Source: Spirochaetaceae bacterium (GTDB lineage Bacteria; Spirochaetota; Spirochaetia; CADAEX01). Taken from it: a stretch of DNA of 54,620 bases. How positions within the stretch are numbered: the stretch's first letter is position 1; each line of letters begins with the position of its first letter. The stretch covers positions 1-54,620 of the forward strand of contig WQZP01000016.1 of assembly GCA_009780675.1 (NCBI GenBank), read 5' to 3'. Under the pieces are notes generated by a model. It did not search any database. It was not told the origin of the DNA and was given only the letters and a program-made list of their open reading frames with translations. Made by a program: the position numbers and the translations under genes. Below, piece after piece: positions 24,294 through 28,393 of the stretch.

Positions 24294-24677
24294 ATGGAAA
24301 CTATAAACACTATTTCAAGTATAGCAGCACCTTTTTCTCATATTTTAAAAGCAGGCTATTCAGGCGGAAGTTTGTCTGTTCCTGTCAGTGATGCAGGCAT
24401 TAGCACCAGATTTAAGCACATAACAGGTATCCCATTACCATCAGATAGCAGTAATGTCTCTTATACCAGGCTTAGACAGCTTGATATGTTGATTGCCCAG
24501 ATAGGTAAATTAAGGGATAGGGAAATTGTGGAAATCGATTTTGAGAGCATTGAACAAGGTCAGCTTCAACATATAATAGACAATTTTGCTTATGAGCTCA
24601 GGAACGGATTAAATTCCCAGGCAGATCCTTACCAGAGGATATATTCTCCGGGTTCTATACTTAATATGACTGCCTGA
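24294..24677 (+). CDS. Small hypothetical protein
   Basis: A 127-residue soluble protein with no signal or membrane segment. The first 50 residues are Ser/Gly-rich with low order (AGYSGGSLSVPVSD). Residues 57-115 look helical (YTRLRQLDMLIAQIGKLRDREIVEIDF, quoted in parts: LRQLDMLIAQIGKLRD). AAGAGG lies about 8 nt before the ATG. It ends 2 nt before the next gene, so the pair forms an operon. I do not recognise a family; the composition is normal for the window, so it is probably a lineage-specific protein and not a spurious frame. Confidence 0.75.
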   Translation: METINTISSIAAPFSHILKAGYSGGSLSVPVSDAGISTRFKHITGIPLPSDSSNVSYTRLRQLDMLIAQIGKLRDREIVEIDFESIEQGQLQHIIDNFAYELRNGLNSQADPYQRIYSPGSILNMTA

Positions 24678-24679
24678 TA

Positions 24680-25900
24680 ATGAATTATTTGATTTTAATT
24701 CTGGCAACAACAGTTTTTTTTTATCTGATAATTCCTGGTATTGGCGCTTTTATTGTAAGAAAACAGTGGAGCGAATTTCGCAGAAAACTTGTAGCTGCTG
24801 CTGCAACACCTATCATTGACTTTTCCAAGTCCAGAGGCGGAGAGTCGGAATATCTCGGTATTTTTAAATTTTTTGGATCACTTGAAGCAATACAGGATAA
24901 ATATGAGATATGGCTCAGGAGCAGTAATTTTACAGTTACTGTAAATATGCAAAATGTTAAAATATATCTTATTCCTGCTTTTAGCTCTTTAGAAAATAAA
25001 AATGATATATATGAAAAAAACAGTGAAATTATAATAGATGAGATGCCACAGGTATTGGGATGGGAAAAATTTCATTCTTTATCCCAGCAGACAGATATTA
25101 TGGTTTGCGGTCCTCTGTTTATGGAAAAAGGGAAAGTAATTTTTAGAAATACAGCGGAAAACAGTATTACTTTTCTGATATATGATGGCAAACAAGAGTC
25201 TTTACTAAGGCGTAGTATATGGGCAGGAAGGCACAGGAATGAGTACTGGAATATATTTACCCCTGCTTCTCTGGTTGCAGGCTCTTTTTCCCTTTTTATT
25301 ATTGCCTATTATCTTTTTTCAATTCCTGAATCTGTAACTATCTCCAGATTTGCGCTTTCATTAAGCCTTATCCCTGTAATGCCCCTTTTTCCACCTGGAG
25401 TTGTGTTCTTTTTTACTTATAGGTATTTTTGGAAAAAAGCCAGATTTTTAAGGGCAGAAAGAGATATTGTAAAACTCCCTTTTCAGTACTTTCAAGCCCT
25501 GTCCGTTAATCCACCAGAGGGCATCACCCCGGCAGAAGGCGGGGATAACAATTTTTGTCTTGCTGTATGGCCGAAAATGGCATATTGCTATAAAAAAATT
25601 GAAAATAAAGAAGAAGTAAAGGAAATTTGCCATAGCAAGAATATTAAAATAAGAAGTGTATCTATTATTGAAAATAATAAATCAAAAAATAACATCTATT
25701 ATTATTTTTATAAACCAGAAAATAAGCTGGAAGACCCTTTTATAGAAGAAATTATTGTTCACGGAGACCCTGGGGCTATTATAAAGAAATGCCAACGCAA
25801 ATCAGAAATTTATGACTATTTCTCTATCGCTATTTTTGCAATAGGAATGATAATTAATTTCCCAATTACTTATTATTTTATTGACCTGATAAGCAATTAA
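24680..25900 (+). CDS. Hypothetical integral membrane protein
   Basis: A 406-residue protein. One N-terminal helix (residues 2-24, LILILATTVFFYLIIPGIGAF) is followed by about 165 soluble residues, a pair of helices at about 194-213 and 220-250, another 130 soluble residues and a final helix near 380-402. No catalytic motif stands out. Residues about 276-290 (PPEGITPAEGGDN) are encoded by a GC-rich hairpin (25520-25543), unlike the rest. It is coupled to the small gene upstream by a 2-nt gap and its stop overlaps the convergent gene's stop by 4 nt. Family and function unknown. Confidence 0.8.
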   Translation: MNYLILILATTVFFYLIIPGIGAFIVRKQWSEFRRKLVAAAATPIIDFSKSRGGESEYLGIFKFFGSLEAIQDKYEIWLRSSNFTVTVNMQNVKIYLIPAFSSLENKNDIYEKNSEIIIDEMPQVLGWEKFHSLSQQTDIMVCGPLFMEKGKVIFRNTAENSITFLIYDGKQESLLRRSIWAGRHRNEYWNIFTPASLVAGSFSLFIIAYYLFSIPESVTISRFALSLSLIPVMPLFPPGVVFFFTYRYFWKKARFLRAERDIVKLPFQYFQALSVNPPEGITPAEGGDNNFCLAVWPKMAYCYKKIENKEEVKEICHSKNIKIRSVSIIENNKSKNNIYYYFYKPENKLEDPFIEEIIVHGDPGAIIKKCQRKSEIYDYFSIAIFAIGMIINFPITYYFIDLISN

Positions 25901-27051
25901 GCATCATCCTGATTGATACTGGTTTTCGTTGGTGCAGGGCCTGGCTTCGAGGTTTTTTTTACATTTTTTGCATAACTGGCATTTAATTTTTTTCCTTTAA
26001 ATGTAACGCCATTAATAACATTTATAACAGCTTCTGCTTTTGAAGATGTAACATCTAAAAATGAATAACTATCAAGCACTTTTATCCGTTTTAGATCGCT
26101 TTTTTCTGCTACTTTAGAAGATAAAACCATTCCCGCGATATCTTTAGAATAGAGTCCTCTGGCGTTCCCAATATTTATAAAAATGGTTTTTAAATCGCTA
26201 CTTTTTTCTTCACTGTCCTTTGCCAGAACATTATATCCATTTTGCTCAGCATATTTTTTAAGAAGCCATGCTGAAAAATAACTTCTTGTAAAAAAAGGTA
26301 CATTCTTTTTTATTATTTTTTTGATTTCATCAAGGTTTTTTATATCAGATCCACTTTTTATTTCTGAAACAATATTTTGTATAAACGAATTATCCATAAT
26401 TTTCTTTTCTCCTGCCTCTGCACAGTTTATTGTTATTGGCTTTTTAAAAAGTTGATAAAAAGAATAGTCATGCTTTTTGTTCTTTGTAAAAACAATAAAA
26501 AGTTGTTTTTTACTAAGTTTTGAAAAAATAAATTCTACATCCTTTTCAAAACTATAATGATCATCTATATCACTATCTTCAATTATACAACTTTGTATCC
26601 CTTCGAGAGAGATATTATTACTTCGTATCTGGTCGATAATACTGTCCGTAGTACTTATAAATATATCCGGCTGTTTTTGAAGCAAACGGGAATCTTTTTT
26701 GATATTACGTTCAGAATTTGCAGCAACTGACAGAAGATTCGTCACTCTTCTTTGAGACAATTTTTTAAAAAGAGTACTGATTTTTACTACATTTTCAGGG
26801 GATGACGCAATAATAATGCTTTTTAACCCTGGTAATGAAGAATCTGTGTTTGCAATAACAGGAAGAACTATCCCCATAGTTTTCCCGCACCCTTCTTCGG
26901 TTTCTGCAATTATATATTTATTGCCAGAAATTGCTCCAACCAATTTTTTTTGAAGAGGGGTAAGTGTCTCGAAACCAGCTTTTTTTATGATCAAACTGTA
27001 TTTATCATTTTCTTTTGATTGATACAAAATATTATCCTGATATTTGGCCAT
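25897..27051 (-). CDS. Degenerate DEAD-box-like protein with DbpA-type RNA-binding domain
   Basis: A 384-residue protein. It opens like a DEAD-box helicase: an isolated aromatic and Q motif (FETLTPLQ, 27-34) and a P-loop (AETEEGCGKT, 50-59). Beyond that the motifs are altered: motif Ia PTREL is ASSPEN, motif II DEAD is EDSD (158-161), and motif III SAT is FTK. After one RecA-like domain there is only a short linker (about 215-285) where the second RecA domain, with its arginine finger, should be. Residues 287-366 then match the DbpA RNA-binding domain (FINIGNARGL, GMVLSSKV, IKVLDSYSFLDV), which in DbpA binds 23S rRNA. ATP-driven unwinding is unlikely; an RNA-binding assembly factor is a better guess. 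The Lys/Pro-rich tail is disordered. Known: family motifs. Inferred: role. Confidence 0.8.
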   Translation of the reverse strand: MAKYQDNILYQSKENDKYSLIIKKAGFETLTPLQKKLVGAISGNKYIIAETEEGCGKTMGIVLPVIANTDSSLPGLKSIIIASSPENVVKISTLFKKLSQRRVTNLLSVAANSERNIKKDSRLLQKQPDIFISTTDSIIDQIRSNNISLEGIQSCIIEDSDIDDHYSFEKDVEFIFSKLSKKQLFIVFTKNKKHDYSFYQLFKKPITINCAEAGEKKIMDNSFIQNIVSEIKSGSDIKNLDEIKKIIKKNVPFFTRSYFSAWLLKKYAEQNGYNVLAKDSEEKSSDLKTIFINIGNARGLYSKDIAGMVLSSKVAEKSDLKRIKVLDSYSFLDVTSSKAEAVINVINGVTFKGKKLNASYAKNVKKTSKPGPAPTKTSINQDDA

Positions 27052-27184: not shown

Positions 27185-28393
27185 ATGAGAAAAATTTGGC
27201 TATTTTTATTGCTTTTTCTATTCCTCACAGTTTTTTGTTTTGCAGTTGCTGAACAGTTTGAATATAGGTTTGTCGTTGGTACAAAATACAGAATTTTGTC
27301 CGAAGTAGATGAAAATGTCTATATAAATAGTGTTCTTTCGCATCATGCAAGAATGCTTAACAGGATATCTGTGGAAATAATAGAAGCAGACCATGAAAGT
27401 GGTGTTATGTTTGCAACGCTTGATTTATCTGAAAGAATTACCGGAAGATTCTCTACTTATGAAATTACTGAAAGATATGAATCTACATTCCGTCAGGACA
27501 GGCGTGGATTTACAACTGTAGACAGGCAATACTTTATTCCAATGGCAAGAGATATCCCTGTTTTTCCTGACTATCCCATTGAACCTGGATATGAATGGAC
27601 CGGCGAAGGAGAAGAAGTTCATGATTTCAGGAGAAGTTTTAATATTCCACAACCTTATGCTTTCCCTGTGAGCGTAAGTTATAAATATCTTGGAAAAGAT
27701 GAAACAGGGTTATACGATGTTTTCAACATAAGATACAGTGTTGACCATGAAACCAATTTTCCCAGACCAAGAAATGTAACAAATCAATTACATCTTGTAA
27801 GAATAACAGGCTCTACTGATCAAATAATGTTGTGGGATAACAAAAGAGGCCGCGCTTTTAGTTATAGCGAAGAATTTATTTTTGAAATGGAATTGTTATC
27901 TGGCGATATAGTAACATTTACAGGAACTGCATGGGCAGAAGTTATTGAGGCAGAAGATCTTGATACAGACAAGCTCGTAGAAGAAGTTGAGCAATCAATC
28001 AGGGATTCCGGCATTGAAAATGTCTATGTAGAAAGGGTCGCAGAAGGTATAAAAATAACAATCGAGGATATTCAGTTCCTCCCGGATTCTGCAATACTTG
28101 CAGAGACAGAATTTGAAAAATTAGCGCAAATAATTGAGATACTTCATAATAATCCAAACCATGATCTTCTTATAATAGGGCACACTGCTCTTGCAGGAAC
28201 AGCAGAGGGGAGAAGAGCGCTTTCGTTTCAAAGAGCAAGGGGTGTTGCAGAGCATATCCTTGATTCCGGAGCAAGAACAGAAAGAGAGGTGCGGATACTG
28301 GGCCGGGGGGCAGAAGAGCCTGTTGCGACAAACGCAACCGAAGAAGGGAGAAGAAGAAACAGGCGGGTCGAGATAATTATTCTTGAGAACTAG
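27185..28393 (+). CDS. OmpA-family C-terminal domain exported protein
   Basis: A 402-residue exported protein. Signal peptide MRKIWLFLLLFLFLTVFCFAVA. Residues 24-260 are beta-rich and unrecognised (possibly a barrel or periplasmic lipid/ligand domain). Residues about 285-402 form an OmpA peptidoglycan-binding domain: IQFLPDSAIL, LLIIGHTALAGTAEGRRALSFQRARGVAEHIL (in parts: GHTALAGT, LSFQRA), ILGRGAEEPVA and a final RRNRRVEIIILEN. It resembles the T. pallidum arrangement in which an OmpA domain follows a distinct N-terminal region. It should tether envelope to cell wall in the periplasm. GGGATACA before the ATG is a weak ribosome site. Confidence 0.9.
   Translation: MRKIWLFLLLFLFLTVFCFAVAEQFEYRFVVGTKYRILSEVDENVYINSVLSHHARMLNRISVEIIEADHESGVMFATLDLSERITGRFSTYEITERYESTFRQDRRGFTTVDRQYFIPMARDIPVFPDYPIEPGYEWTGEGEEVHDFRRSFNIPQPYAFPVSVSYKYLGKDETGLYDVFNIRYSVDHETNFPRPRNVTNQLHLVRITGSTDQIMLWDNKRGRAFSYSEEFIFEMELLSGDIVTFTGTAWAEVIEAEDLDTDKLVEEVEQSIRDSGIENVYVERVAEGIKITIEDIQFLPDSAILAETEFEKLAQIIEILHNNPNHDLLIIGHTALAGTAEGRRALSFQRARGVAEHILDSGARTEREVRILGRGAEEPVATNATEEGRRRNRRVEIIILEN

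Follow-up and report, generated by a model that had tools for sequence, protein, structure and literature searches.

A class-wide spirochaete DEAD-box pseudohelicase, probably an ATP-independent RNA binder

A gene in the window, a 54,620-nucleotide stretch of DNA from a Spirochaetaceae bacterium, belongs to a class-wide spirochaete family of DEAD-box pseudohelicases, which we consider likely to act as ATP-independent RNA binders, probably in dimeric form. DEAD-box proteins are usually read as ATP-driven remodellers. This family provides a natural series that shows what stays needed when the motor is dispensable, namely the RNA-binding tail first, and the wedge-helix face of RecA1 wherever the core remains. 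The series can be regarded as many independent experiments on the DEAD-box parts that matter without ATP. If our reading is true, a bacterial RNA-binding factor has been made from a stripped helicase. Annotations such as "DEAD/DEAH box helicase" or "DbpA" at this spirochaete locus are probably wrong on enzymatic activity.

Domain layout and active-site motifs of the window protein

An earlier, sequence-only reading of this DNA had described an intact frame of 384 codons that encodes a DEAD-box remnant with a DbpA-type RNA-binding domain (RBD) and without a second RecA domain. Our analysis confirmed each part of this description. The gene lies on the minus strand and contains the following features:

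25897..27051, minus strand: pseudohelicase ORF, 384 aa; open frame of 384 codons with stop codon TAA
26485..26961, minus strand: RecA1 (DEAD, PF00270) remnant by Pfam, residues 31–189
26878..26901, minus strand: P-loop TEEGCGKT, residues 51–58
26614..26655, minus strand: motif Ic / wedge-helix block STTDSIIDQIRSNN, residues 133–146
26569..26580, minus strand: degenerate motif II EDSD, residues 158–161; DEAD in active paralogues
26518..26550, minus strand: helix after motif II, FEKDVEFIFSK, residues 168–178
26410..26418, minus strand: RecA2 deletion point, residues 212–214 versus 216–365 of the active paralogue
26236..26388, minus strand: helical segment, by homology like the dimerisation domain before the RBD in CsdA/Hera-type helicases, residues about 222–272
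25978..26187, minus strand: DbpA-type RNA-binding domain (RRM), residues 289–358

In Pfam searches residues 31–189 match DEAD PF00270 with 50.4 bits (cut-off 26) and residues 289–358 match the DbpA RBD PF03880 with 53.5 bits (cut-off 25.6) over 70 of 72 positions; Helicase_C gave no match in this protein, and nothing credible was found beyond the two domains. Aligned to the genome's active paralogue L002 (608 aa), the protein lacks about 148 residues at residue 213, the entire RecA2 (residues 217–364 of the paralogue). Between this deletion and the RBD lies the helical segment, which had escaped the earlier reading, contains an invariant arginine (R256) and is homologous to the segment found ahead of the RBD in spirochaete helicases that are active. 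This homology is supported by profile searches, in which active spirochaete helicases match nearly the whole pseudohelicase tail. Judged by this segment, the protein would probably dimerise. AlphaFold2 models computed from three sequences reached a mean pLDDT of 38 for the full protein and 40 for the tail, too low for them to be used.

Alignment to the genome's own canonical helicase confirmed the earlier assignment of the active-site motifs. The Q motif (GFETLTPLQ) and the P-loop (GCGKT) are kept, motif II reads IIEDSDI instead of VLDEADE, and motif III, read before as FTK, is VFTKNK instead of MFSATV, a change of SAT to TKN. From the inventory of an active DEAD-box helicase, the protein contains motif I and the Q motif, and lacks DEAD, SAT and RecA2 with motifs IV–VI and the arginine finger. 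The DEAD-box clamp cycle requires RecA2, the arginine finger and DEAD. Since none of these is present, the clamp cycle should be impossible in the window protein, which would not unwind RNA by this route. Given the P-loop, the Q motif and the two acids in motif II, nucleotide binding may persist. NCBIfam equivalog scores are far under the cut-offs (DbpA NF008744, 70.6 of 524 bits; CshA, 71.2 of 646 bits); the protein shares the RBD of the DbpA/YxiN subfamily and falls short of its full-length equivalog.

The ends of the gene show some local peculiarities. Its stop codon overlaps that of a convergent gene for a 406-aa protein in a TTAA palindrome (25897–25900). The start codon (27027–27051) is open to doubt: residues 1 to 8 lack conservation within the genus, and the closest relatives point to other start codons. 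At the C-terminus, residues 367–384 (about 25900–25953) extend the protein by 18 residues, rich in K, T and P, which are absent from its two nearest relatives.

Orthologues, their locus and the dismantling of the core

All 11 genomes of the window's family, which is the whole order, carry a RecA2-less orthologue with an intact frame, at 72–81% identity in three genomes of the same genus and 34–37% in seven genomes of the sister genus. Because the architecture is kept across both genera it is not a product of chance, and we can also eliminate the possibility that it arose from an assembly error or a recent deletion. Across the class, 395 genomes were searched with the window protein and a tail profile. 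Related tails were found in 336 at E ≤ 1e-6, an upper bound since RBDs from active helicases also pass this looser threshold, and in about 320 at E ≤ 1e-18. Family f19, with genomes of 0.9–1.8 Mb, had no tail among the matches listed.

The members come in three architectures: full-length but dead proteins of about 480–610 aa, RecA2-less proteins of about 310–440 aa, including the window protein, and tail-only proteins of about 150–280 aa. To compare their surroundings, loci were drawn from about 120 genomes and scored for nine neighbour families. The shared neighbours are a divergent OmpA-domain gene, the convergent 406-aa gene, a 127-aa gene, DksA/TraR, Smr and Bat. Two of them flank the pseudohelicase in the window:

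24680..25900, plus strand: convergent neighbour, 406-aa putative membrane protein without a Pfam match; beside the pseudohelicase in 27 families
27185..28393, plus strand: divergent neighbour with an OmpA-like C-terminal domain; beside the pseudohelicase in 26 families

The 127-aa protein (24294–24677) has no Pfam match either and is conserved beside the locus in 24 spirochaete families.

At least one shared neighbour is found at 42/42 full-length, 38/38 RecA2-less and 31/34 tail-only loci, and at least two at 35, 30 and 23 of these loci, respectively. The corresponding counts for at least one neighbour are 0/7 at active-helicase loci and 1/12 at tail-only loci of other spirochaete classes. 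Since this neighbourhood is common to the three architectures and absent from active-helicase loci, the full-length, RecA2-less and tail-only members are orthologues and, judged by gene order, sit mostly at one conserved locus. The class-wide synteny also rejects a recent horizontal acquisition. The full-length members are real DEAD-box descendants, as their profile aligns with solved CshA across both RecA domains (E 2.2e-62) and Pfam still recognises Helicase_C in 11 of 38.

How far catalysis has been lost was counted on 69 non-redundant core-bearing members (<70% identity to each other). The D and E of the DEAD motif survive in 38% and 14%, the K and T of GKT in 43% each, and the three residues of SAT in 19, 9 and 6%; motifs V and VI are kept in about 0–16%. 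Not one of the 69 combines a P-loop with DExD, a single member has DExD without a P-loop, and both SAT and HRxGRxxR are absent from every member inspected. The sequence-only reading had named orthologues with intact DEAD and HELICc domains as the finding that would speak against it, and none turned up among the sampled class members. Its expectation that orthologues share an EDSD-like motif II holds within the genus; the sister genus has mostly CGDD or CGDE, and other families carry other lesions. Likewise, the loss of RecA2 recurs in some orthologues, and many retain a dead RecA2. Judged from these alignments, active-site death is class-wide and RecA2 was lost more than once.

The remains of the nucleotide site in the window protein could point to an ATP-gated RNA binder, in which nucleotide, bound by the P-loop, the Q motif and the acid-swapped motif II but not hydrolysed, would switch the affinity for RNA. 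GKT, Q and EDSD are indeed invariant in the genus. However, GK[ST] is kept in just 24 of the 69 non-redundant members, some sister-genus genomes have GKI in the P-loop, and the closed clamp cannot form without RecA2, which makes this mechanism unlikely. Three of the 69, all full-length members from family f32 (L056, L076 and L078), keep GK[ST] together with DE and have lost SAT and motifs V and VI. These proteins appear to be the least dead and may be good candidates for residual nucleotide binding.

A tree of the tail, with active helicases as outgroup, is built on 149 columns, too few to fix the order of events or the root, and contains many unresolved forks. A topology that unites the pseudohelicase family in one clade, apart from the active helicases, does better than the first free tree (lnL +40, p-AU 0.85). 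Measured against a free tree that was not the best, a single RecA2 loss, with all RecA2-less members in one clade, is rejected (p-AU 0.0018), as is a single core loss, with all tail-only members in one clade (p-AU 0.0002). Contrasting architectures also occur within the same family: full-length and tail-only members in f9 and in f37, RecA2-less and tail-only members in f34 and in f26. The simplest reading of these data would be that catalysis was lost once, before the radiation of the sampled class, and that RecA2 and the entire core were then deleted repeatedly. The ancestor would have been a CshA/CsdA-like helicase that joined RecA1 and RecA2 to a dimerisation-type helical segment and a DbpA-type RBD, and its catalytic motifs would have been lost early. 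Several lineages, including the window's family, would then have deleted RecA2, and others the whole core, leaving the tail alone.

Selection on the core and conservation of the tail

In its core, the family shows dN/dS ratios of 0.08–0.26 in all close pairs and of 0.11–0.22 in pairs with the window protein (Nei–Gojobori method; some dS values of the tail are saturated). By this measure purifying selection acts on the dead core, in agreement with the earlier proposal that the gene is maintained and not decaying. Helicase homology with lost catalytic motifs and purifying selection are the features that the family shares with pseudohelicases as a functional class. A decaying pseudogene, or an assembly artefact of an ordinary DbpA/CsdA helicase, would account for the degenerate catalytic motifs and the repeated shrinkage of the core. 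We find this explanation hardly credible in view of the intact frame and the same architecture in all 11 family genomes, the dN/dS ratios and a new invariant signature in the core (see below); neither a broken frame nor relaxed selection was observed. Furthermore, no core remnant lies upstream of 33 of the 34 tail-only genes, and the remaining gene shows one marginal 40-residue match.

The signature consists of two blocks. In the motif Ic / wedge-helix block I139 and R143 are invariant (69/69) and D140 is nearly so (67/69). In the helix after motif II D171 is found in 68/69 members, F/Y174 and I/V175 in 69/69 and K/R178 in 65/69. Positions 139, 143, 174 and 178 vary in active relatives, which have K, D, R or E at position 143. 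The same invariants recur in separately built alignments of the full-length and the RecA2-less members. DDX21 carries a TPGRxxD pattern in its wedge helix (T315, G317, R318 and D321) and Q352 after motif II (PMC7375243). Mapped onto DDX21 by residue pattern, the two signature blocks would correspond to the helices through which active helicases touch and kink RNA. The wedge arginines at positions 137 and 144 are both replaced by serine in the window's genus.

The tail is kept throughout: PF03880 was detected in 38/38, 31/31 and 33/33 members. Its best solved match is the RBD of YxiN (2g0c/3moj, E 1.1e-11). The family keeps the YxiN-type G-K-x-R-R basic run (K/R 84–97%), for the most part the guanine pocket (YxiN numbering: I436 84%, G437 79%, I439 as I/V 98%) and the RNP-like aromatics (F291 92%, Y329 96%, F331 100%). 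RNA binding by the tail is likely on the strength of these residues. YxiN recognises hairpin 92 through G423, T424 and K427, of which K427 contacts the loop, and through the guanine pocket I436-G437-I439 (PMC3695512). Unlike YxiN-type RBDs, the pseudohelicase has different RNA-contact residues in helix α1, and the position of K427 is not conserved in the family. In the window's genus the guanine pocket is altered as well (LKRI for IGxI). Basic patch and pocket are mostly kept family-wide; the simple claim that the protein binds the DbpA target, hairpin 92, was set aside for lack of a conserved K427 and finds no support. Because of the changes at R137, R144 and the guanine pocket, RNA binding in the genus may differ from that in the rest of the family.

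Possible functions and relation to known proteins

How may a helicase without a motor work? In the mechanism that we prefer, the RRM tail would grip RNA, probably as a dimer and independently of ATP. The remaining RecA1 would form a non-catalytic platform, with the RNA-kinking wedge helices kept or reused as a docking face. As to the cellular job, we tentatively suggest that the protein serves structured RNA, for instance rRNA, as a chaperone or an assembly factor; the role in ribosome assembly that the earlier reading had raised is plausible.

A distribution of labour with another helicase was also considered. In the window's genus, the pseudohelicase could be an RNA-specificity subunit in trans, which pairs through its dimerisation-type segment with the sole active, RBD-less CshA/DeaD-type helicase and guides it to structured RNA, so that the motor would reside on one polypeptide and the address label on another. 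In each of three sampled genomes of the genus (G000, G009 and G010) the single active CshA/DeaD-type helicase has no RBD by the tail profile, and the window pseudohelicase contains the sole PF03880 domain of its genome. In 17 other sampled genomes the top active helicase does match the tail profile (E 3e-15 to 0.02, the two weakest matches at E 0.01–0.02 being doubtful), and 20/20 pseudohelicase genomes tested also carry an active CshA-like helicase. However, since the active paralogue elsewhere in the class has its own RBD, pairing in trans would leave the class-wide maintenance of the family unexplained, and we regard it as a live, though rather unlikely, alternative. The RBD-less helicases of the genus are listed under L249–L251 and G000:C6:81307-82593.

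Returning to the ATP-independent RNA binder, we lean towards a history in which the motor died once in an ancient, vertically inherited pseudohelicase. Motifs, then RecA2, then the core would have been lost repeatedly in parallel, and the wedge helices would have gained new invariants while the core lasted. In the window's genus, an active helicase that has no RBD and a pseudohelicase that has no motor may together make up a split enzyme.

With CshA, CsdA (DeaD) and the helicases that carry a C-terminal RBD (DbpA, YxiN, Hera), the window family shares the RecA1 fold, the dimerisation-type segment and a modified RRM. In contrast to these enzymes it has no DEAD, SAT or HRxGRxxR, and in the window protein RecA2 is deleted. 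Pseudohelicases as such are already known. Utp25/Def of the eukaryotic SSU processome is likewise derived from a DEAD-box protein, has lost its catalytic motifs and is selectively kept; unlike the spirochaete family it is eukaryotic, contains both RecA domains and no DbpA RBD, and no serial core loss has been reported for it (PMC9539457). PriA of Deinococcus radiodurans is also bacterial and has been called a pseudohelicase, but belongs to a DNA helicase family, acts in replication restart and concerns one species (PMC4504706). We found no report in the open-access literature of a bacterial DEAD-box pseudohelicase family, of this spirochaete family or of serial core dismantling at one locus, so that a bacterial DEAD-box family with serial dismantling seems new. 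One of 31 RecA2-less members matches CMS1 (PF14617) in Pfam (E 5.7e-7). CMS1 is a eukaryotic 90S pre-ribosome subunit without an RBD, whereas the window protein is bacterial and has one; the match likely reflects convergence on a worn RecA1.

The family offers an origin and a testable role for nameless spirochaete proteins, by inference including TP1029 of Treponema pallidum. A 1,139,633-bp genome that we take as T. pallidum contains a tail-only gene for 228 aa (L227) at about 1.1248–1.1254 Mb. TP1029 lies at 1,123,796 in older numbering (PMC2408589), has been named DbpA RNA binding domain protein (PMC8525777) and is part of a published proteome (PMC5015957); the papers found make no mention of a helicase ancestry. 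From its genome position and domain name, TP1029 would be a tail-only member of the family which, unlike the window protein, has wholly lost its core. The putative T. pallidum locus is among the three tail-only loci without a shared neighbour, so that its membership rests on sequence and tree.

Stand-alone DbpA-like RBD proteins of 163–168 aa also occur in other spirochaete classes (L207–L215, L223 and L224). They resemble the tail profile, but were set apart from the orthologues because they lack the shared synteny and form a clade of their own. These proteins are a probable, or at least possible, parallel case in which a second helicase was stripped down to its tail.
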